Assembly: GCF_900143215.1 (NCBI RefSeq)
Contig: NZ_FRDM01000020.1
Coordinates: 1 to 64,000 of the forward strand
Reading direction: 5' to 3'
DNA length: 64,000 bases
Source of the DNA: Geodermatophilus obscurus
GTDB taxonomy: Bacteria; Actinomycetota; Actinomycetes; Mycobacteriales; Geodermatophilaceae
Positions within the stretch are counted from its first letter, which is position 1. Each line of letters opens with the position of its first letter. A model generated the notes under the pieces. The model had not been told where the DNA came from. It worked only from the letters and a program-made list of their open reading frames with translations, and ran no database searches. Shown here one piece after another: positions 2,183-14,801 of the stretch. Both the position numbers and the translations under genes were made by a program.

Positions 2183-2262
2183 CCGCGGACTCCTCGGGTC
2201 CTCACGCCCGGGGGACGCCCTCGATGACGTCGGAGAGAGACCGATCGAGAGGGAGCACCCCC

Positions 2263-2592
2263 ATGAGCAACCGCCCCGCCACCTGGAAGGTCGTCACCCT
2301 CGGCGCCGCGCTGGCCGGACTCGGTGTCGCCGGTGCCGGCGTCGCCGACGCCGTCGCCGACGACGAGCCGCGCAACCAGCAGCCGGACAGCGTCGTCGTC
2401 GACGCCGCCGAGGGGGACGCGACCGCCACCCCCGCCGACGCCTCGCCCGCCGACGCCTCGCCCGCCGACGCCTCGCCCGCCGACGCCTCGCCCGAGAGCG
2501 CGGACTCGCCGAACGAGAGCGTCGCCGACTCCCCGGAGGACACCCCCGGGGTCGACGCCACCCCCGCCGACGCCACCCCCGATGACGACTGA
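2263..2592 (+). CDS. secreted or membrane-anchored Pro/Ala/Asp/Ser-repeat protein
   Basis: The start is the ATG at 2263, preceded by GAGAGGGAG; an in-frame ATG at 2224 has no such site. The product (109 aa) opens MSNRPATWKVVTLGAALAGL, a hydrophobic segment consistent with an N-terminal signal or anchor. The rest is disordered and acidic, with four exact PADAS repeats encoded by a 15-bp tandem repeat, ending ATPADATPDDD. I do not recognise a family. It could be a wall-spanning spacer or small exported protein. A hairpin follows the stop. Confidence 0.6.
   Translation: MSNRPATWKVVTLGAALAGLGVAGAGVADAVADDEPRNQQPDSVVVDAAEGDATATPADASPADASPADASPADASPESADSPNESVADSPEDTPGVDATPADATPDDD
2431..2490 (+). 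repeat. 15-bp tandem repeat, 4 perfect copies
   Basis: The unit CCCGCCGACGCCTCG is repeated four times without a mismatch inside the secreted-protein gene. Each unit adds PADAS in frame, so length changes by slippage would keep the reading frame. Confidence 0.95.
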
Positions 2593-5490: not shown

Positions 5491-7557
5491 TCAGTACGGG
5501 GGTGGTTCGGTGACGGCGGTCAGGCCGGTGGGTGTGGTGACGGCGAGGGTGCCGTCGGGGGTCATGGTGTAGGTCCAGCCGGGGGCCTGGTGTTTGCCGC
5601 GGTGGTCGGTCGTGCAGAAGCCGGCCAGGTTGGCCGCGGCGGTGGGCCCGTGCGGATGGGCGGTGACGTGGTCCAGTTCGCCGGCGGCGGGAATGCGGCG
5701 GCGGCAGCCGGGAAAGCGGCAGTGCCGGTCGCGGGCCCGGGTGAAGCGGTCCAGCGCCGCGGCGGGCCGGTACCCCGGCGTGGATGCCGGAGCGCCCAGG
5801 CCGGGGCGGCCGGTCAGGTCGTGGCCGCAGGTCTGCGGTCGCCGCCGGCACGCCGGAGCTCCGCAGCTGCCGGCCCGGCGCAGGGCGGGCAGGTCGGTCA
5901 GCGCCAGCAGCGCGCCGCTGACCGCGTCGGTGACCGCGATCCGCGGCCGGTCGGCCAGCCCGCCCTCGGCGGTGGCCATGAGCAGGGCGGCCAGCTCGTC
6001 GCGCTGGGTGTCGGCCGCGGCGGCCAGCGCGGCCAGCGCGTCCTCGGCGGCGGTCACCCGCCCGGCGGTGCCGGTCTGCCAGGCGGCCTCGTCGGCGGCG
6101 TCGGCGCGCGACCGGGGCGGGACCTCGGCATCGGGTCCGAGCAGGTCGGCACCGGAGCCGTAACCGGAGTCGTAGCCGTAGCCGTAGCCGTAGCCGTGGT
6201 CGTGGCCGTAGCCGTAGCCGTAGCCGTAGCCGTAGTCGTGGTCGTCGAGCCACTGGCAGGGGTCGTGCCAGGGGCCGGCGTCCCAGCCGCCCGGCTCGGG
6301 CGGTCCGCCGGGCTCCCAGCCCGGCTCCCCGGGTGCAGGGGCGTCGCCGAAGCCGTCGCGCACCAGCTCGTCCAGCCACCGGTCGAAGTCGGCGGCGTTC
6401 AGCTCGGCCGCGGCCCGCTCGACCGGGCCGCCCGCGACGTCGACCGGCTCGAGAGCGCCGCCGACGGAGCACCTGGCATCTGCGGCGTCGGCGTCCCCGG
6501 CCGAGGTCGCGGCGTCACCGGCCGACGTGGCGGTGTCGCCGGGGACGGGATCGCCGGGGGCGGGATCGCCGGGGGTGGGGTCGTCGGGGGTGGGGTCGTC
6601 GGCGGCGACGGGGTCCAGGCCGGCGAAGGCGCGGGCCAGCTGGCGGGCCATCTCCGCCGGCACCGGCCGGCCGTCGACCTCACCCACGGCGTCCCCACCC
6701 AGCGCGGTGTGCACCGAGGCCACGATCGTCAGCAGCGCCTGCACCGGCGGCAGCTCGGCCTCTCCCGGGCGCAGCACCAGATCCAGCAGGCAGTCCACCA
6801 GCTGCTGCCCCCGGCTGCGCTCCTCCCCCAGCCCGGTCTCCAGCGCGTCCACGTAGCCGCACAGCGCCCGGTAGAACGCCTGCGCCTCCGGCGTGCTGCA
6901 CACCACCGTCACCACCGACAGGCCCAGCGTGCGGTCCTCCCGCAGCGAGATGCCGCGCCGCTGCAGCGCCCGGGCCAGCTCCCGCGCCGCGTTCCGCGCG
7001 TTCAACCCGGCCACCACCCGGCGCACCCGATCGGCCAGCGCCGCCGGCGTGGTCACCCGGCGCCGCGCGGCCAGCCAGGCCAGCAGCTCGGCCTCCACCC
7101 GGGCGCGCAGCGCATCGTCGGCGATCGGCGCCACGTGCTCCAGCAGGCACCACAGGTGCCGCTCGTGCAGCAGCCCGCTCTGCAGCGCGTCCAGCACCCG
7201 CGGCAGCCGGGACACCAGCGTCAGCGACCGCGCCAACTCCGCCTCCGCGGCCGGCACGGTGAGGTTCAGCGCGATCGACAGCTCCTGGGCGGCCCACTCA
7301 CTCACCGGCCACAGCACCGCCGCCCGCGCCGCCCACCGCTGCGCCGACATCGCTCCGCGCTCCCCCTGCACCCGATCGGCGGCCGCCGGCCGGCTGGCCG
7401 CGAACGCCGCCACCGCCCGCACCCGCAACGCCGCCTGCCGGCTCATCTCCCGGGCCGCGGCCTGCACCGCACCCAACGGCCCCTCCGCCCAGCCCACCGA
7501 CGGCGCAGCAGCACCCACAGCCCCGGTCCACGCCTCACCGCCCACGCGTTCGATCAT
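5491..7557 (-). CDS. DUF222 / HNH endonuclease (13E12-repeat family)
   Basis: A 688-aa protein. The N-terminal 300 residues form the helical DUF222 region typical of 13E12-repeat proteins (WPVSEWAAQELSIALNL; LSVVTVVCSTPEAQAFYRAL). The C-terminus carries an HNH nuclease with paired cysteines (RDRHCRFPGC) and ELDHVTAHPHGPTAAANL...CTTDHRGKH. Between them lies a low-complexity stretch of Tyr-Gly dipeptides (coded by 6171-6243). The family is a multicopy actinobacterial group, probably mobile or self-propagating; its substrate is not settled. The start ATG sits inside a SOS-box-like site, and a GTG four codons later is the alternative start. Single gene; nothing suggests an operon. Confidence 0.9.
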   Translation of the reverse strand: MIERVGGEAWTGAVGAAAPSVGWAEGPLGAVQAAAREMSRQAALRVRAVAAFAASRPAAADRVQGERGAMSAQRWAARAAVLWPVSEWAAQELSIALNLTVPAAEAELARSLTLVSRLPRVLDALQSGLLHERHLWCLLEHVAPIADDALRARVEAELLAWLAARRRVTTPAALADRVRRVVAGLNARNAARELARALQRRGISLREDRTLGLSVVTVVCSTPEAQAFYRALCGYVDALETGLGEERSRGQQLVDCLLDLVLRPGEAELPPVQALLTIVASVHTALGGDAVGEVDGRPVPAEMARQLARAFAGLDPVAADDPTPDDPTPGDPAPGDPVPGDTATSAGDAATSAGDADAADARCSVGGALEPVDVAGGPVERAAAELNAADFDRWLDELVRDGFGDAPAPGEPGWEPGGPPEPGGWDAGPWHDPCQWLDDHDYGYGYGYGYGHDHGYGYGYGYDSGYGSGADLLGPDAEVPPRSRADAADEAAWQTGTAGRVTAAEDALAALAAAADTQRDELAALLMATAEGGLADRPRIAVTDAVSGALLALTDLPALRRAGSCGAPACRRRPQTCGHDLTGRPGLGAPASTPGYRPAAALDRFTRARDRHCRFPGCRRRIPAAGELDHVTAHPHGPTAAANLAGFCTTDHRGKHQAPGWTYTMTPDGTLAVTTPTGLTAVTEPPPY

Positions 7558-7685: not shown

Positions 7686-8387
7686 TCAGCGCGTGTTGGC
7701 CGCCAGCGAGGCGGACAGGGTGAGCCGGAGGGTCTCGGGGACCTCGTCCGCGGCACGCCGCGGGGTGGGCACGAGGTCGATGACCAGGCGGGTCGGCGCG
7801 AAGGCCTCCGCGTAGCCGATGCGGGCCTGGGCGCCCCAGTGCCGGGCCGAGGCCACCACGGCGTCGGGCTCCACCATCGCCGACATCTCCACCTGGGAGA
7901 CGTGCGCGCCGAGAGCGGCGAGCTTGCCGGAGAGGTAGGCGGTCACGTCGACGAAGGTCGTCGGGGAGAACGACAGCGTGGACGGGCTCTGGTAGTGCAT
8001 GACCCGGGAGAGCCGGCGGGCCGCGGACAGGGTCGCGGCGGCGACGGCGCGGTGGTCCTGGTGGCTGTCGTCGGGGGCGTGCACGTAGACGATGTCGGCG
8101 TCGGTCTCCTCGATCGCCCGCTCGACGATCGCGACCGTGGCAGCGTCGGGCACGACGGTGCAGTCGACCTGGCCGCCCCACTGCAGCCGGGCGCCCAGGG
8201 TGCGGGCGGCCTGCTCCTGCTCGAGACGCCGGCCGATGACCACCTCGTCGTCCCCGGGGCCGTTCTCGCCACCGGTCATGACCAGCATGGTGACGGCGTC
8301 GCCGGCGGCGGAGTGGGCCAGCAGGGTGGCGCCGCAGCCGAGTTCGATGTCGTCGGGGTGCGCCCCGACCGCGAGGACCCTACGCAT
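7686..8387 (-). CDS. PIG-L family (LmbE-like) N-deacetylase
   Basis: A 233-aa zinc deacetylase. The start is MRRVLAVGAHPDDIELGCGA, with the metal-binding HPDD at residues 10-13 and the second motif SHQDHRA around 109-112, both diagnostic of PIG-L/LmbE/MshB enzymes that remove acetyl from GlcNAc-type substrates. It is not obviously mshB itself, which is usually longer. The start overlaps the stop of the 56-aa gene upstream by eight bases, so it is the last gene of a short operon. Its neighbours are a surface protein and sugar-nucleotide/glycan enzymes, which suggests action on a surface amino sugar (inference). Confidence 0.88.
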   Translation of the reverse strand: MRRVLAVGAHPDDIELGCGATLLAHSAAGDAVTMLVMTGGENGPGDDEVVIGRRLEQEQAARTLGARLQWGGQVDCTVVPDAATVAIVERAIEETDADIVYVHAPDDSHQDHRAVAAATLSAARRLSRVMHYQSPSTLSFSPTTFVDVTAYLSGKLAALGAHVSQVEMSAMVEPDAVVASARHWGAQARIGYAEAFAPTRLVIDLVPTPRRAADEVPETLRLTLSASLAANTR

Positions 8388-8550
8388 CGTCGCGGCTCGC
8401 AGCGGCCCGGGCGCGTGCGCGCCGGTCGGCGGCCGAGGCCGTACCCGGCGCCGCGAGCAGCGCCACCGGGGCGATGACCGCGACCAGGGCGCCGCGGGAG
8501 GCACGTGCGCGCAGGCGCCGTGCCGTCGAAGACCTCGTGGGGCCGTGCAT
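8380..8550 (-). CDS. internally deleted paralogue of the neighbouring surface protein (56 aa)
   Basis: The product has a basic N-terminus, a hydrophobic signal (ALVAVIAPVALLAAPGTASA) and only 16 more residues (ADRRARARAAASRDDA). Both ends match the 180-aa protein encoded next door: its signal ends LLALPGTASA and its last residues are RRARALATAAQDGA. Everything between is missing, including the extracellular domain and the C-terminal membrane helix. The leader DNA upstream is also duplicated. It is probably a remnant left by duplication and deletion. It may persist because its stop overlaps the PIG-L gene's start and could couple that gene's translation. Confidence 0.6.
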   Translation of the reverse strand: MHGPTRSSTARRLRARASRGALVAVIAPVALLAAPGTASAADRRARARAAASRDDA

Positions 8551-8666: not shown

Positions 8667-9209
8667 CTACGCACCGTCCTGCGCCGCGGTCGCCAGGGCG
8701 CGGGCGCGCCGGTTGGCACGGTGGACCAGGACGGCACCGACGACGCCGGCGGCCGCGAGCCCGATGGCCGGGCCGGTCCCGTTGCCCTCCTCCGGCAGCT
8801 CCGTGGCCGGGGGACAGGCCGTCGCGGTGCCGCGGCGCGCGGCGAGGTTGGTGCCGTCCAGGTGCCACATCGGGCCCGCACCACGGGTCACGGGAACCGT
8901 GAAGGCTCCGTGGTGGGTCCCCGGCCGGAAGGTGGTCGGCTGCGGAGTGCCGTAGGGAACGGGGGTGACCTTGTTCCGCGCGCCCGTCGGGATCGTCACC
9001 GTGGAGGGCGAGGTGTTCTCGTAGCCGAACACGGCGGTCCAGGAGCCGTCGCGGTTGAGCACGACGCAGTCCAGCAGCGGCACCACGGTGCCCTTCGCCG
9101 AGGCCGTGCCGGGCAGGGCGAGCAGCCCGCCCACGGCGATGAGCGCGACCAGCGCGGCACGGGTGACACGGATGCGGGCGCGCCGCACCGCCGATGACCT
9201 GCCGTTCAT
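8667..9209 (-). CDS. exported surface protein with sorting-signal-like C-terminus
   Basis: A 180-aa protein starting MNGRSSAVRRARIRVTRAAL with a signal peptide ending GTASA. An extracellular domain of about 100 residues follows (VVPLLDCVVLNRDGSWTAVF, GYENTSPSTVTIP, TGARNKVTP), rich in Thr/Gly with one Cys near each end. This resembles short beta-domains seen in actinobacterial surface proteins. The C-terminus is tripartite: LPEEG, a hydrophobic helix (AIGLAAAGVVGAVLV), then HRANRRARA. That layout fits a sortase or exosortase substrate or a simple membrane anchor. It lies just downstream of the exosortase operon and upstream of its own deleted copy. Confidence 0.75.
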   Translation of the reverse strand: MNGRSSAVRRARIRVTRAALVALIAVGGLLALPGTASAKGTVVPLLDCVVLNRDGSWTAVFGYENTSPSTVTIPTGARNKVTPVPYGTPQPTTFRPGTHHGAFTVPVTRGAGPMWHLDGTNLAARRGTATACPPATELPEEGNGTGPAIGLAAAGVVGAVLVHRANRRARALATAAQDGA

Positions 9210-9320: not shown

Positions 9321-10034
9321 TCAGGCCCGGACCGGCGCCCCCAGCAGGGACAGGGCCAGCTCGGCGGCCGCCGGAAAGGTGTCGACGACGGCCCAGGCGC
9401 GCGGCTGGTCGGGGGCAGTGGCGTACTCGCCCTGCCGGACGCGGATCGCCCGCGCACCCACGGCCGCCGCCACCGCGACGTCCTTGCCGGGCCGGTCGCC
9501 GATCACCAGCAACCGCTCCGGCGGCACACCGAGCCGTGCGGCGACGGCGACCAGGCCGGCCGGGTGCGGCTTGCGGACGGCGCGGCCGCCGAGGGCGTCG
9601 GTGACGACGACGACCGGCAGCAGCGGCCCGAGCCCGGTCGCGGCCACCTTCGCCGCCTGGATGGCCGGGTTGCCGTCGGTCAGGCAGGCCAGCGGGGCGG
9701 CCGCGGCCAGCGCGCGCAGGGCGTCCTCGGCGCCCGGGTACGGCGACAGCCGCGGCGGTGTGTGCTGCGTGAACGCCGCCACGAGCGGTGGCACCAGCTC
9801 GGCCAGCGACGATCCCGGGACGCCGACCGCGAGCAGTGCCCGGTCGATCGTCCCGCCCGCATCGGAGCCGGCGGCCAGCTCGGACCGCAGCGCGGCGTGC
9901 ACCGCGGCGCCCTGCAGCCCCGCGAGCCCGGCCGCGACCCCGACCGCCGCGGCGGCGGAGGCCAGGTAGTCGGCCTGGGGGTAGAGGGTGTCGTCGAGAT
10001 CCACGACCACACCCAGCGGCGCAGGCCGGCTCAC
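9321..10034 (-). CDS. HAD-superfamily hydrolase
   Basis: A 237-aa phosphatase-type HAD protein. Motif I is VVDLDDTLYP (nucleophile plus acid/base Asp), motif II ACLTDGNP, the motif III Lys lies in RAVRKPHP, and motif IV is LVIGDRPGKD. The GTG at 10034 overlaps the epimerase stop by four bases (GTGA); the GTG one codon earlier is an alternative. It is the last gene of the glycosyltransferase/exosortase/epimerase operon, so a sugar-phosphate or phospho-glycan substrate is plausible, but sequence alone does not show it. Confidence 0.85.
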   Translation of the reverse strand: MSRPAPLGVVVDLDDTLYPQADYLASAAAAVGVAAGLAGLQGAAVHAALRSELAAGSDAGGTIDRALLAVGVPGSSLAELVPPLVAAFTQHTPPRLSPYPGAEDALRALAAAAPLACLTDGNPAIQAAKVAATGLGPLLPVVVVTDALGGRAVRKPHPAGLVAVAARLGVPPERLLVIGDRPGKDVAVAAAVGARAIRVRQGEYATAPDQPRAWAVVDTFPAAAELALSLLGAPVRA

Positions 10035-11179
10035 CACGGCAGCCGCCCGCCGGTGAAGTCGGGCTCGTCGAGGGCCAGCAGGGCGTCGGTCCGCTCGTCG
10101 GCGAGGACGGCGGCCACCCGCGGCCCCGTCGTCCCGTCGCCGTACGGGCAGGGCACCGTCGCGGCGCGCTCCTGCCCCTCCGGGCTGGTGTGCCTGGCCG
10201 CGGCGGACAGCACGGCGGCGGCCGCGCGGTCGTCGGCCAGACCGGCGAGCGTCGTCGTCCCGGCCTCCACGCCCTCCCAGCGCGGCGTCGAGCCGCGGAG
10301 CACCACCACCGGGACGCCGAGGTACGCCGCCTCCTCCTGGATGCCGCCGGAGTCGGTGACCGCCAGCCGGGCCGAGGCCAGCGCGCCCACGAGGACGGAG
10401 TGGTCGACGGGACCGGTCAGCCGAACGCCCGGGTGCTCCAGCCGCGCTCCCAGCCCGGTCTCCGCGAGGCGCGCGGCGGTGCGGGGGTGCACCGGGAAGG
10501 TGACCGGCCCGACCTGGTCGGCCAGCGCCCGCACCACGCCGACCAGGCGGGCCAGGCGGACCAGGTCGTCGACGTTGGTCGGCCGGTGCGCGGTGACCAG
10601 CACGCCGGCGCGCTCGGCGACCGGCACCCGCTGCACACCGCGGGCGACGAGGGTGTCGATGACGGGGTTGCCGACGACGAACACCCGCTCGGCGGCGACG
10701 CCCTCGTCGGCGAGGAAGGCCGCCGCCCGCTCGGTCGGCGCGAGGTGCAGCTGGGCGGTGGCCGCGGCGACCCGCCGGTTGACCTCCTCGACGCTGCGCG
10801 GGTTGAGGCTGCGCAGCCCTGCCTCGAGGTGGGCGAACGGCACCCCGGCGGCGCGGGCGGCCAGCGCGTAGGCCGGCACGGTGTTGGTGTCGCCGAGCGC
10901 GAGCACCAGGTCGGGGTCGAGCAGGCGCAGCGCCCGGAACGCGTCGGCGTGCAGCGCGCCGGTCCGCTCGGCCGGGTCGGTCGGCAGCGCGAAGCGGTGC
11001 CCGGGGGTCAGCCCGAGCGCCGCCTGCAGCTGCGAGCCCATCTGCGGGTCGGTGTGCTGGCCGGTGTCGACCACGCTGACCCGGTGGCCGGCGGCGGTCA
11101 GGGCGGTGACGACGGGGGCGAGCTTGACCACCTCCGGCCGGGTGCCGAACGGCACCAGCACGTGCCGGCTGCGGCTCAC
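10031..11179 (-). CDS. wecB: UDP-N-acetylglucosamine 2-epimerase (non-hydrolysing type)
   Basis: A 382-aa protein of the WecB/MnaA family, which converts UDP-GlcNAc to UDP-ManNAc for surface polysaccharide synthesis. Landmarks are FGTRPEVVKLAPVV at the N-terminus, VVDTGQHTD, ALGDTNTV, HLEAGLRS, the ligand loop TDSGGIQEEA and VLRGSTPRWEGVEAG. Length is normal for the family. The start is a GTG at 11179 overlapping the upstream stop (GTGA), and its own stop overlaps the HAD gene start. The product would supply ManNAc precursors for the family-2 glycosyltransferase at the head of the operon (inference). Confidence 0.92.
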   Translation of the reverse strand: MSRSRHVLVPFGTRPEVVKLAPVVTALTAAGHRVSVVDTGQHTDPQMGSQLQAALGLTPGHRFALPTDPAERTGALHADAFRALRLLDPDLVLALGDTNTVPAYALAARAAGVPFAHLEAGLRSLNPRSVEEVNRRVAAATAQLHLAPTERAAAFLADEGVAAERVFVVGNPVIDTLVARGVQRVPVAERAGVLVTAHRPTNVDDLVRLARLVGVVRALADQVGPVTFPVHPRTAARLAETGLGARLEHPGVRLTGPVDHSVLVGALASARLAVTDSGGIQEEAAYLGVPVVVLRGSTPRWEGVEAGTTTLAGLADDRAAAAVLSAAARHTSPEGQERAATVPCPYGDGTTGPRVAAVLADERTDALLALDEPDFTGGRLPW

Positions 11180-13359
11180 GCCGTCACCGCCACCGGCGCG
11201 CACGGATCGGCGACGGGGCTGCCGTCCGCGCTGCTGTAGGTCTCGGCGAAGTAGCGGCTCATCGCCACACCCGGCCGGAAGGACAGCTCCGGCAGCGGGG
11301 CGCCGCGGACGCCGGCCAGGTAGGCGCTGACCACGTCGGCACCGGCGGCGAGCGTCAGCGGCAACCCGCCGGAGAAGCGCGGGTTGATCTCCACGACCGT
11401 CGCGGTGCCGTCGTCGGCGACGAAGCCCTGCACGTTGGCCGGACCGGTGAGCCCGACCGCCGCCAGCGCCGCGGCGACGACCTCGGTCACCGCCTCGGAG
11501 GCGAAGGTGCGGCCCTTGACCGAGATGCCGGCCTTGGTCTCCTCGCGCCAGCGCGGCACGACCACGCGCAGGCCGCCGTTCCGGTCGACCAGGGCGTCGG
11601 CGGTGAACTCCCGGCCGGTCAGGCGGGTCTGGGCGATGAGCCCGTCGTCCTCGCGGAGCGCCTGCACCACGGGAGCGCGCTCGTCGAGCAGCCGGACGCC
11701 GCGGCTGCCGCGGCCGGCCACCGGCTTGACCACCCACGGTCCCGGGACGCCGGCCACCTCGTCGGCCGACGTGGCGGTCGCCGGGTGCGGCACGCCCGCG
11801 GCGGCCATGGCCCGGGCGAAGGCCGCCTTGTCGCAGCACCCGTCCACCGCAGCGGCGTCGGGCAGCCAGGTGGCGATCCCGGCCGCGGCCAGGCGGGCGG
11901 CGCCGGCGGCCAGGTGCGGCAGCTCCTCGGCGACCGTGCTGACCAGCGCGTCGACGCCGTAGACGGCGCAGACGCCGAGCAGCGCCTCCACGAACCGGGG
12001 GTGGTCGCCGCGCGGCAGGACGACGGCCGTGTGCGCCAGCGCGCCTCCGGCGGCGGCCACGTCGGCGTCGCCGGCCACGACCCGGTGGCCGAGGGCGACC
12101 AGCCGGCGGACCACGGCCACGCCGGCGGGGCCACCGGCTCCGGTGACGAGGACGGCGGGGCCGTCGGCCGCGGGCGGGCGGGGCTGGGGCAGCGAGGAGG
12201 GCATCGGTCGTCCTGGGTCGTCGGGGCGGGCCCGGGGTCGGGACCGCGGCGGCACGGGCACCGGCGGTCGGGGGACCGGGCGGTCGGCGGGAGGCCACAG
12301 CCGCTGGGTGGGCGGCTCGCGCTCGTCGGGCCGGGCCCCGGAGGCGGGCTCCCGCTCGGGGTGCTGCAGCAGCCAGCCGCGCGCCCACAGCCGCAGCGCG
12401 GCGACCCGGTGGTTGGTCACCGGTTCCCACTGCCGCGCGGCGATGGACTCGGCGAGCGCGTCGAGGACGGCCGGGTCGTCGTCGTAGGTCGCCACCGCGA
12501 CCAGCGAGGCAGCGTGCGCCCCCAGGCCGTCGCCGGCCAGCGCGCGCACCCGTGCGGCCCGCTCGGCGGAGGGCAGGTGCCCGATCCGGTAGTCGATGCG
12601 CTCCGCCTCGCGGCGCGCGCCCATCCATCGGGCGACCCGGTCCGGCAGCACGTAGCGGTACACGAGGCCGGTCAGGTTCAGCCGGCGGGAAGGGGCGCGC
12701 GGGTCGTCGTCCGCCGGCCGGTAACCCAGGCCCGGGCGCGCCCAGCTGTCGGGCCGGCGGGCGGTGTGCCGGCCGGCGACGTCCTGCTCGGCACGCTCGG
12801 CGGTCGGCAGCGTGATGCAGACCATGAGCAGGAAGCCGCCGAGCGTGGCGGCGAGGTTCCACACCGTGCCGACCCAGTCGTGGAAGAGCACCAGCGCCGG
12901 CGTCCCCCACACCAGGCCGGCGACCGTGGAAGCGGCCAGCCGCAGGTGGTTGAGCACGAGCAGCGCGGCGACGGCGACGACGAGCCCGGCCACCGCGTGC
13001 TGGCGCCGGCCGCGCAGGACGACGGCGGTCAGCGCGGTGAGGCCGAGGACCGACAGGATCGAGGAGCAGGACTCGGTGACCTCGGCCAGGATGACCTCGC
13101 CGTCGGGGCGGAAGACCAGGATGTGCCGTTCCAGGGACCACGAGACCGAGTCGACGCCGACCAGGTCCAGCACGTGGGCGACCCAGCGGGCCTCGTGCAC
13201 CTGCAGGAAGCCGGCGCCGTAGCGGAAGCCGACGGCGCAGATGACCACCGCCAGCAGCAGGTCCAGCAGCACCGGGACCAGCCGGCGACCGCTGCGCAGG
13301 GGGCGCCGGGCCCGCCGGTACGGGCTCCCCCCGAGCAGCACGGCCGCGCCGACCGTCAC
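11176..13359 (-). CDS. exosortase-like membrane protein fused to an ATP-grasp ligase
   Basis: A 727-aa protein with no stop between two very different halves. Residues 1-185 are a multi-helix membrane domain carrying the exosortase/archaeosortase triad: C98 in TESCSSILSVL, R140 in LNHLRLAAS and H160 in LFHDWVGTVWN. Residues 190-335 are a helical cytoplasmic region, and 336-400 a Pro/Arg-rich linker. Residues 400-727 form an ATP-grasp enzyme of the carbamoyl-phosphate-synthase-like type (VTGAGGPAGVAVVRRL; PWVVKPVAGRGSRGVRLL; ATVVEINPRFSGGLPLTLAA). The start is a GTG overlapping the glycosyltransferase stop (GTGA). An internal ATG at 12204 with AGGA upstream could also yield free ATP-grasp protein. 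The exosortase half has no stop of its own, so the fusion is forced unless the sequence contains an error. Confidence 0.8.
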   Translation of the reverse strand: MTVGAAVLLGGSPYRRARRPLRSGRRLVPVLLDLLLAVVICAVGFRYGAGFLQVHEARWVAHVLDLVGVDSVSWSLERHILVFRPDGEVILAEVTESCSSILSVLGLTALTAVVLRGRRQHAVAGLVVAVAALLVLNHLRLAASTVAGLVWGTPALVLFHDWVGTVWNLAATLGGFLLMVCITLPTAERAEQDVAGRHTARRPDSWARPGLGYRPADDDPRAPSRRLNLTGLVYRYVLPDRVARWMGARREAERIDYRIGHLPSAERAARVRALAGDGLGAHAASLVAVATYDDDPAVLDALAESIAARQWEPVTNHRVAALRLWARGWLLQHPEREPASGARPDEREPPTQRLWPPADRPVPRPPVPVPPRSRPRARPDDPGRPMPSSLPQPRPPAADGPAVLVTGAGGPAGVAVVRRLVALGHRVVAGDADVAAAGGALAHTAVVLPRGDHPRFVEALLGVCAVYGVDALVSTVAEELPHLAAGAARLAAAGIATWLPDAAAVDGCCDKAAFARAMAAAGVPHPATATSADEVAGVPGPWVVKPVAGRGSRGVRLLDERAPVVQALREDDGLIAQTRLTGREFTADALVDRNGGLRVVVPRWREETKAGISVKGRTFASEAVTEVVAAALAAVGLTGPANVQGFVADDGTATVVEINPRFSGGLPLTLAAGADVVSAYLAGVRGAPLPELSFRPGVAMSRYFAETYSSADGSPVADPCAPVAVTA

Positions 13360-14801
13360 GACCCCACCCCCGCGGGCGCGACCACGGGCGGGTCGACCCG
13401 CACCGTCGAGGTGGCCCCCGACCGCGAGGTCTTCACCCAGGTGTAGGGGCGGCCGAGCATGCCGTCGACGTAGGCGCGCGTGGTGATCCAGATGGACAGC
13501 GCGAAGGCGGGCAGGAAGCCCAGCAGCCGCCACGCCGACCGCCGCTCCACCCGGCCGATGAGCAGGCCGACGGAGAGCTCGGCCAGCGGGCCGACGAACA
13601 GCAGCATCGACAGCGGCAGCAGCGCGACGACCGGCAGGTCGCCGATGCCGAAGGCGCGCAGCACGGTCAGCACCAGGCCCAGCCCGCTGAGCAGGGGCAC
13701 GTGGTAGACGAGCAGGAAGAGCGTCGTCTCGACCTTCTCGACCGGGCTCAGGTGCGGCGAGCGCATGAGCGGGCGCCAGTAGTCGCGGAAGCACTTCTGG
13801 TGGCCGCGGGCCCACCGGTACCGCTGCTTCCAGAACCGCTGGGCGCTGACCACCGCCTCCTCGAAGTCGACGGCGGAGAGGTCGTAGCGCACGCGCTGGC
13901 CGGCCATGAGCACGCGGAGGGTGAGGTCGGTGTCCTCGGTGACGGTGTGCGGGTTCCACCCACCGAGGCCGCGCAGCGTGGACATGCGGACCGCGCAGTT
14001 GGCCCCGCCGTACGCGGGCAGCTCGAACAGCGCCTGCCGGCCGTACTCGTTGACCAGGTAGCCGGAGAGGAAGTCGACGAAGACGGTCGAGGCCATCGGC
14101 GAGTCGCGGCCGTTGCGGATGACGCAGCGGCCCATCACCGCGCCGACGACCGGGTCGCGGAAGTGCCGGACCAGCCGCCGCAGCGCCGTGGGGTCCGGCT
14201 CGTGGTCGGCGTCGAAGACGACGGCGATCTCGGCGTCGACCAGGTGCAGGGCGTCGTTCAGCGCACCGGACTTGCCGCCGCCGGAACCCGGCGGGCGGTG
14301 CAGCACGCGCAGCCGCCGCTCGCGGACCGCCCAGGCGTCCAGCCGGGCGCCGGTGCTGTCGTCGGAGCCGTCGTCGACCACGACCAGGGTGAGCCGGTCG
14401 GCCGGGTAGTCCAGCGCGAGCAGCGCGGTGACCATCCCGTCGACGACGAGCTCCTCGTTCTTGCAGCCGACGAAGACCGCGACCGAGGGCGTGTAGCCGG
14501 ACAGCCCGACGTCGGCGGCGAGCATGTCGTTCTCGGCCCAGCGTGCCGCGGCGACGGCGAAGGCGAGGTGCCGGCAGAAGTAGACGCCGAAGACGACGTT
14601 GAGCACGCCGGCGACCACGCCGAGGATTTCGTCGAGGCCGGAGAAGAGCGCCACCATCGTGAAGCCGCAGACGTAGGCCAGCAGCACCAGGGGCCGGCCC
14701 TCGGGCCGGCTGTCGTGGGGATCGCCGGCGGGTGCGACGGCGGCCGTAGGGACGCCGGCCGGCGGGAACCCGGTGCCGGGCGTGGTCGCCCCGCTGACCA
14801 C
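13356..14801 (-). CDS. processive family-2 glycosyltransferase, membrane-bound
   Basis: A 481-aa GT2 enzyme of the cellulose/hyaluronan/PNAG-synthase type. Two N-terminal helices (LVLLAYVCGFTMVALFSGL; ILGVVAGVLNVVFGVYF) precede the catalytic domain with VVVDDGSDDST, FDADHEP (DxD), TEDTDLTLR and QRFWKQRYRWARGH (Q/RxxRW). Three or more C-terminal helices follow. The GTG at 14801 has GGAGG seven bases upstream. First gene of the operon. In Gram-positive XrtG loci an exosortase is paired with a GT2 of this kind, and the same pairing is seen here. Polymer identity unknown. Confidence 0.9.
   Translation of the reverse strand: MVSGATTPGTGFPPAGVPTAAVAPAGDPHDSRPEGRPLVLLAYVCGFTMVALFSGLDEILGVVAGVLNVVFGVYFCRHLAFAVAAARWAENDMLAADVGLSGYTPSVAVFVGCKNEELVVDGMVTALLALDYPADRLTLVVVDDGSDDSTGARLDAWAVRERRLRVLHRPPGSGGGKSGALNDALHLVDAEIAVVFDADHEPDPTALRRLVRHFRDPVVGAVMGRCVIRNGRDSPMASTVFVDFLSGYLVNEYGRQALFELPAYGGANCAVRMSTLRGLGGWNPHTVTEDTDLTLRVLMAGQRVRYDLSAVDFEEAVVSAQRFWKQRYRWARGHQKCFRDYWRPLMRSPHLSPVEKVETTLFLLVYHVPLLSGLGLVLTVLRAFGIGDLPVVALLPLSMLLFVGPLAELSVGLLIGRVERRSAWRLLGFLPAFALSIWITTRAYVDGMLGRPYTWVKTSRSGATSTVRVDPPVVAPAGVGS

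Follow-up and report, generated by a model that had tools for sequence, protein, structure and literature searches.

This 64,000-nucleotide stretch of the Geodermatophilus obscurus genome (contig NZ_FRDM01000020.1, positions 1 to 64,000; hereafter the window) carries a gene that joins an exosortase-like membrane domain to an ATP-grasp ligase domain. The gene lies on the minus strand and runs from a GTG at 13359 to a TGA at 11176 as one open frame of 727 codons plus the stop. It shares GTGA overlaps with the genes on either side, a family 2 glycosyltransferase (GT2) gene upstream and a WecB-type epimerase gene downstream. The 727-residue product is ordered as an exosortase domain with four transmembrane helices, a HEAT-like middle domain, a disordered proline-rich linker, and an ATP-grasp domain. 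Dozens of genomes carry the same pair of domains, which puts the fusion far beyond chance and confirms it as real. The initial annotation of the locus, made from the letters alone, had the coordinates, the length, and an internal start at 12204 right and omitted that the gene is on the minus strand. The parts of the gene are as follows.

12808..13359, minus strand: exosortase domain, residues 1-184 (TIGR04178 profile, catalytic triad, AlphaFold2 model, hydropathy, and loop charges)
12718..12792, minus strand: cytosolic juxtamembrane motif AEQDxxGRHTAxRPxxWxRPGxGxR, residues 190-214, after the last transmembrane helix (near-invariant alignment columns)
12355..12675, minus strand: HEAT-like middle domain with an RQWEPV..ALRLWARxW motif, residues 229-335 (all-helical model; homologous stretch of locus L033)
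12172..12342, minus strand: proline-rich disordered linker, poorly conserved, residues 340-396 (predicted local distance difference test score [pLDDT] of about 35, junction alignment, and a dip in GC by codon position)
12202..12214, minus strand: Shine-Dalgarno AGGA (12211-12214) and ATG (12202-12204) of the ancestral separate ATP-grasp gene (conserved against relatives)
11215..12159, minus strand: ATP-grasp domain, residues 401-715, with a PylC-like N-terminal subdomain (Pfam, PDB, and Foldseek matches; conserved residues)

Domain architecture of the fusion protein

The initial annotation had read an exosortase and an ATP-grasp domain in one frame, with a Cys-Arg-His triad at C98, R140, and H160. 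Profile searches (TIGR04178 and ATP-grasp_3) and an AlphaFold2 model bear out the domain pair, and the triad residues occupy exactly those positions, with no variation in any of the 32 homologues that have an exosortase domain. The TIGR04178 (exo_archaeo) signature is matched at 33.3 bits against a cut-off of 23 in the profile search and at 38.8 bits in the genome search, which found a single exosortase in the window genome; all 32 exosortase rows of our alignment match it as well. The AlphaFold2 model, built from a 51-row alignment, has a mean pLDDT of 82.7 and is confident over exosortase residues 28-183, including a beta hairpin before C98, and over ATP-grasp residues 401-720; it resolves the middle domain into seven helices and leaves the linker (340-396) disordered. 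From the helices of this model, hydropathy, and loop charges (Lys+Arg against Asp+Glu of 7/0 inside, 3/8 outside, 3/0 inside, and 0/1 outside), the protein is predicted to have a cytosolic N terminus and four transmembrane helices, with the hairpin and C98, R140, and H160 at the outer face and the C-terminal domains in the cytosol.

The signature, the triad, the multiple transmembrane helices with outward-facing catalytic residues, and a co-occurring tagged secreted protein (see below) together place the domain, by sequence and model, in the exosortase/archaeosortase family. It scores below the cut-offs of all named exosortase subfamilies, and even the nearest two are distant (XrtS [NF033767], 29.7 bits against 145; XrtR, 20.3 bits against 150). 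The exosortase of this system differs from the described family by its added HEAT-like domain and, in many lineages, its ATP-grasp domain, and by a substrate motif, [LM]PxxGNG, that is not PEP. The juxtamembrane motif is nearly invariant in homologues and absent from the exosortases of loci L033 and L034.

The helical region of the initial annotation is a HEAT-like domain in its own right, found with one partner or the other. The middle domain of the window protein has no Pfam match; in L033 the equivalent stretch scores 37.1 bits against Pfam HEAT_2 (cut-off 27.7).

The ATP-grasp domain is matched by Pfam ATP-grasp_3 at 60.1 bits (cut-off 23.2) and by PRK12767-type models; its nearest PDB entry by sequence is 2pn1 (E of 2.5e-23), which Foldseek also returned from the model (E of 8.5e-18, TM-score of 0.82 by target) alongside the amino acid ligase 3vot (1.8e-14). 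The ATP-binding and Mg-binding (E657-N659) motifs are intact, judged by conserved residues, and both profile and predicted fold assign the domain to the ATP-grasp superfamily. It shares a fold and an active-site signature across its full length with PRK12767-type enzymes ("carbamoyl phosphate synthase-like," 2pn1) and with the L-amino acid ligase 3vot; it differs from them in scoring below all equivalog cut-offs (for PRK12767, 163.9 bits at best against 390) and in being tethered or fused to a membrane exosortase.

Fused, split, and rejoined versions across lineages

We compared the fused or split state at 37 loci. Most Geodermatophilaceae have two genes; the last letters of the exosortase frame are typically ATGA or GTGA, and the ATG or GTG in them is the start of the ATP-grasp gene, preceded by a Shine-Dalgarno sequence. 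In the window and in G. pulveris, an indel in the proline-rich tail joins the two frames, and in the window the ancestral stop has also been lost (ATGA in relatives, ATGC here). From these sequences, the window fusion is read as a recent event that merged two genes coupled in translation. The window still has an intact AGGA-N6-ATG at 12214-12202, and because this Shine-Dalgarno sequence and start are conserved, a separate ATP-grasp protein may still be made from the ATG at 12204.

The ATGA overlap of close relatives raises the concern that the window fusion is a sequencing or assembly indel and that its true state is two overlapping genes, since gain or loss of one base in the GC-rich linker would be enough to bring the frames together. 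A false fusion of this kind does occur in our set: Blastococcus sp. TML/M2B (L036) has an apparent frameshift within its exosortase at about 5600-5800 that gives a misleading long frame, and we rejected its mechanical call as fused because the exosortase frame is broken in the middle. For the window we rejected a frameshift artifact because the ancestral stop is also gone, so that undoing the indel would send the exosortase frame far into the ATP-grasp gene. The G. pulveris frame is fused too, and Micromonosporaceae together with four Acidimicrobiia/Actinomycetes metagenome-assembled genomes (MAGs) carry fusions that have neither the proline-rich linker nor the internal start. We regard an artifact as the least probable of the alternatives considered here.

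The partners are joined and parted at more than one boundary. Actinoplanes sp. KI2 (L032:4971-8198) encodes a triple fusion of exosortase, HEAT, ATP-grasp, and WecB domains in one frame of 1,075 amino acids. At L033 and L034 the split falls elsewhere, giving a short exosortase followed by a transmembrane-HEAT-ATP-grasp protein, and genomes G058 and G065 are also split elsewhere, judged by their separate exosortase and middle-domain matches; the HEAT-like domain is joined to either partner, depending on the lineage. Shifting points of joining and splitting are what would be expected of the parts of one physical complex, and the comparison argues for such a complex.

Among 20 genomes related to the window genome, the system is present in 10 of 12 congeners, one of which (G008) is fused; a 60-genome sample of the class gave three matches besides the window genome, one of them marginal. 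Our tree requires at least three changes between fused and split states. The DNA tree parts the window from G. pulveris (approximately unbiased [AU] test, p of 0.116) and the protein tree joins them, which gives one or two recent fusion events within Geodermatophilus. A single origin of the Micromonosporaceae and Acidimicrobiia fusions is not rejected (AU p of 0.293). The initial annotation held that separate genes in relatives would count against a fusion; such genes are present in most Geodermatophilaceae, but other families carry fixed fusions, and the fusion is, on this comparison, lineage-variable and not absent. Its further statement that no such fusion had been described agrees with our finding none in the open-access literature. 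The arrangement is no one-off, and close relatives have two overlapping genes.

The secreted protein and the conserved gene cluster

The neighboring genes that recur with the exosortase are these.

13356..14801, minus strand: GT2 membrane glycosyltransferase, PgaC/IcaA-like (profiles; below the curated cut-off of every named subfamily)
10031..11179, minus strand: nonhydrolyzing UDP-N-acetylglucosamine (GlcNAc) 2-epimerase, WecB type (TIGR00236, 235.5 bits, cut-off 210.15)
9321..10037, minus strand: HAD-family phosphatase (Pfam PF00702 and PF13242; conserved in the cluster)
8667..9209, minus strand: secreted protein, likely exosortase substrate (alignment of 33 homologues, model, and co-occurrence)
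8694..8798, minus strand: proposed sorting signal of the secreted protein, LPEEGNGTGP, hydrophobic helix, HRANRRAR (conserved residues; motif in unlinked paralogues)
7686..8387, minus strand: PIG-L/LmbE-type N-deacetylase, 233 amino acids from the ATG at 8387 (PF02585, 80.1 bits; BshB1-like, 77.5 bits; conserved in the cluster)

The 33 aligned members of the secreted family have a signal peptide, an immunoglobulin-like (Ig-like) beta-sandwich in which a Cys pair is invariant, and a C terminus of sorting type, a tripartite tail made up of a motif, a hydrophobic transmembrane helix, and arginines. The motif is [LM]PxxGNG in Geodermatophilaceae and Micromonosporaceae, LPVDPLG in Acidimicrobiia, and P-x-x-x-G-S in the divergent group that is split at a different domain boundary; P139 is invariant in the alignment, and G144 and R168 are conserved in at least 90% of rows. 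The window protein belongs to no family in Pfam or NCBIfam, and with its [LM]PxxGNG tail it also falls outside PEP-CTERM by NCBIfam. The LPXTG anchor model TIGR01167 does not match it either, and the best homologue (L012) reaches 13.2 bits against a cut-off of 15.9. Foldseek returned nothing at an E of 0.001 or better, and VIA-align gave Z scores of 5-6 to many Ig-like domains, which says beta-sandwich and nothing finer. Sortase A systems resemble this one in substrates with a signal peptide and a motif-helix-basic tail and in Cys-Arg-His chemistry, but there is no sequence relation, and the window substrate does not match LPXTG_anchor.

Both the secreted protein and the exosortase-ATP-grasp pair are present in 11 of 13 genomes of the genus. 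Neither is present in two congeners (G006 and G007) or in eight genomes from other families, and the pattern in the two congeners suggests that the whole system was lost as a unit. Unlinked paralogues in three congeners (L054, L055, and L056) keep the same MPxxGNG tail after a longer N-terminal stretch, and their retention of it makes the substrate-exosortase link more than mere neighborhood. Given the tripartite tail and the co-occurrence, the secreted protein is likely, on this sequence evidence, the dedicated substrate of the exosortase, and the pairing of one exosortase with one or two substrates points to a dedicated system. Several relatives keep two full tandem substrate copies. The window itself has, at 8425-8538 on the minus strand, a remnant second copy in which an intact signal peptide runs straight into the last part of the tail (MHGPTRSSTARRLRARASRGALVAVIAPVALLAAPGTASA-ADRRARARAAASRDDA), as though a deletion had removed the middle.

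These data bear on an alternative in which the exosortase-like domain serves glycan synthesis as a polymerase, flippase, or scaffold, with the secreted protein as an accessory factor. The divergence of the domain, below all named subfamily cut-offs, would allow this. The invariance of the triad, the TIGR04178 match of every exosortase row, and a linked substrate with a tripartite tail and a matched phylogenetic profile all speak for a sorting protease instead, and we consider a nonproteolytic role highly improbable.

Outside Geodermatophilaceae (in Micromonosporaceae and Acidimicrobiia MAGs) the order secreted protein, PIG-L deacetylase, GT2, exosortase, HEAT, ATP-grasp, WecB-type epimerase, HAD phosphatase is kept; in Geodermatophilaceae the secreted protein and PIG-L genes are usually at the opposite end of the cluster. 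Comparison of the flanks found no further conserved gene beyond the cluster among the matches listed. A GT2 synthase also adjoins the exosortase in the XrtP- and XrtG-associated systems, whose models the window glycosyltransferase matches weakly (91.0 and 44.7 bits); it falls well under their cut-offs (520 and 363.95), and the present cluster adds ATP-grasp, WecB, PIG-L, and HAD genes.

Two other minus- and plus-strand frames of the window may be recorded here. A 688-codon frame at 5491-7557 (minus strand) has a (GY)n-rich tract and an HNH-like C terminus (CRFPGCRRR..LDHVTAHPHG), with no Pfam match at an E of 0.1, and a small exported-looking protein at 2224-2592 (plus strand) has ADASP tandem repeats and an Asp-rich tail.

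A proposed acceptor pathway for exosortase sorting

We propose, with a probability of roughly 0.45, that this is an exosortase system dedicated to surface display and that its ATP-grasp domain and the cluster enzymes build an amino-sugar acceptor for covalent attachment of the secreted protein. The sorting role of the exosortase is well supported by its context; the ligase product we infer. The small Ig-like protein would be exported, and its [LM]PxxGNG-helix-Arg tail would be recognized and cut outside the membrane by the Cys-Arg-His residues, as family and context suggest. The HEAT domain and linker would hold the ATP-grasp ligase at the cytosolic side of the same membrane protein or complex. 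The epimerase and GT2 would supply a sugar of N-acetylmannosamine or GlcNAc type, PIG-L would free an amine, and the ATP-grasp domain would most likely amide-link an amino acid or another carboxylate to it; with the WecB-type epimerase, PIG-L, the HAD phosphatase, and GT2, the ligase product would be a membrane-borne amino-sugar acceptor. Once moved to the outer face, its amine could act as the nucleophile that resolves the acyl-enzyme, leaving the protein covalently on a glycan or glycolipid, and joining both catalytic parts would couple the making of the acceptor to its use. The initial annotation had suggested that one protein might cut a sorting signal and activate the acceptor, or make the acceptor on site. 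Acceptor making fits the conserved cluster, as a coupling across the membrane, but joint action at one place does not, because with active sites predicted on opposite sides the ATP-grasp domain could not act at that of the exosortase and would prepare a cytosolic precursor.

A precedent comes from type IX secretion. In Porphyromonas and Tannerella, sorted proteins are attached via sugars with a 2-N-seryl or 2-N-glycyl group, the products of an epimerase/deacetylase/aminoacyl-transfer pathway, in which the linking-sugar makers are Wbp enzymes, the putative deacetylase VimE, and VimA; the authors suggest that VimA-related genes near exosortases do the same (PMC7468200). As proposed for the window cluster, the acceptor used by a sorting enzyme is made there by sugar-nucleotide enzymes together with a deacetylase and an enzyme that adds an amino acid. 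The type IX pathway differs in that it is an outer-membrane system with an unrelated sortase and in that the GNAT/FemAB-like VimA, not an ATP-grasp enzyme, aminoacylates. By analogy, the ATP-grasp domain would take the place of VimA.

Two other roles for the ligase have to be weighed. The exosortase system may be dedicated, with the ATP-grasp, GT2, epimerase, and deacetylase decorating a separate exopolysaccharide or glycolipid and the sorted protein released or noncovalently associated rather than joined to their product. Gram-negative exosortases are linked with exopolysaccharide production (PMC1569441), and the GT2 resembles poly-GlcNAc synthases; that exosortase and ATP-grasp have been covalently joined more than once, in several lineages, suggests a coupling closer than coregulation, and we judge a separate glycan unlikely, though the most serious of the alternatives. 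Alternatively, the ATP-grasp domain may build no acceptor and instead act in regulation, by modifying the exosortase, the substrate protein, or the cytosolic tail of that substrate. Protein-modifying ATP-grasp enzymes of RimK type exist (3vpd is a weak PDB match), and the domain is tethered near the cytosolic Arg tail of the substrate. That tail is short and variable, however, the ligase is closer in sequence and fold to the small-molecule ligases 2pn1 and 3vot, and the sugar-nucleotide genes would be left unexplained, which makes such a modification improbable.

Several points weigh against an amino-sugar acceptor. The ATP-grasp domain falls under the curated cut-off of every NCBIfam equivalog that it matches, and its fold is also compatible with reactions of biotin carboxylase-like type or of other ATP-grasp enzymes. 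Although PIG-L is kept in the cluster, it could belong to a different pathway, and the placement of the domains relative to one another is uncertain in the AlphaFold2 model (predicted TM-score of 0.53). For exosortases generally, it is unproven that they carry out transpeptidation rather than simple cleavage (PMC11980579). Sequence and modeling supply the fusion, the cluster, the candidate substrate, and the topology; cleavage, ligation, and acceptor chemistry we infer. The fuller claim, that one transmembrane polypeptide makes an attachment group in the cytosol and uses it outside, and that an aminoacylated amino-sugar is the covalent anchor of the Ig-like protein in an undescribed Actinomycetota system, is a tentative one, which we think somewhat doubtful as a whole.

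We found no exosortase-ATP-grasp fusion, HEAT linker, cluster of this kind, or substrate family described in the open-access literature. Within the limits of that literature, Pfam, and NCBIfam, exosortases, GT2 neighbors, and ATP-grasp ligases are known kinds, and the fusion, HEAT linker, cluster, and substrate family are new. As far as open-access papers show, the group that exosortases and archaeosortases attach to the new C terminus of their substrates is not settled. A single dedicated substrate, together with an ATP-grasp domain fused to the exosortase, points to acceptor chemistry, and the search for the acceptor could be made in cultured soil actinobacteria, where the system is small and genetically contained. 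The fused, split, and rejoined forms are a natural set of versions of the same complex, and the system as a whole is an unusually direct lead on the exosortase acceptor question.

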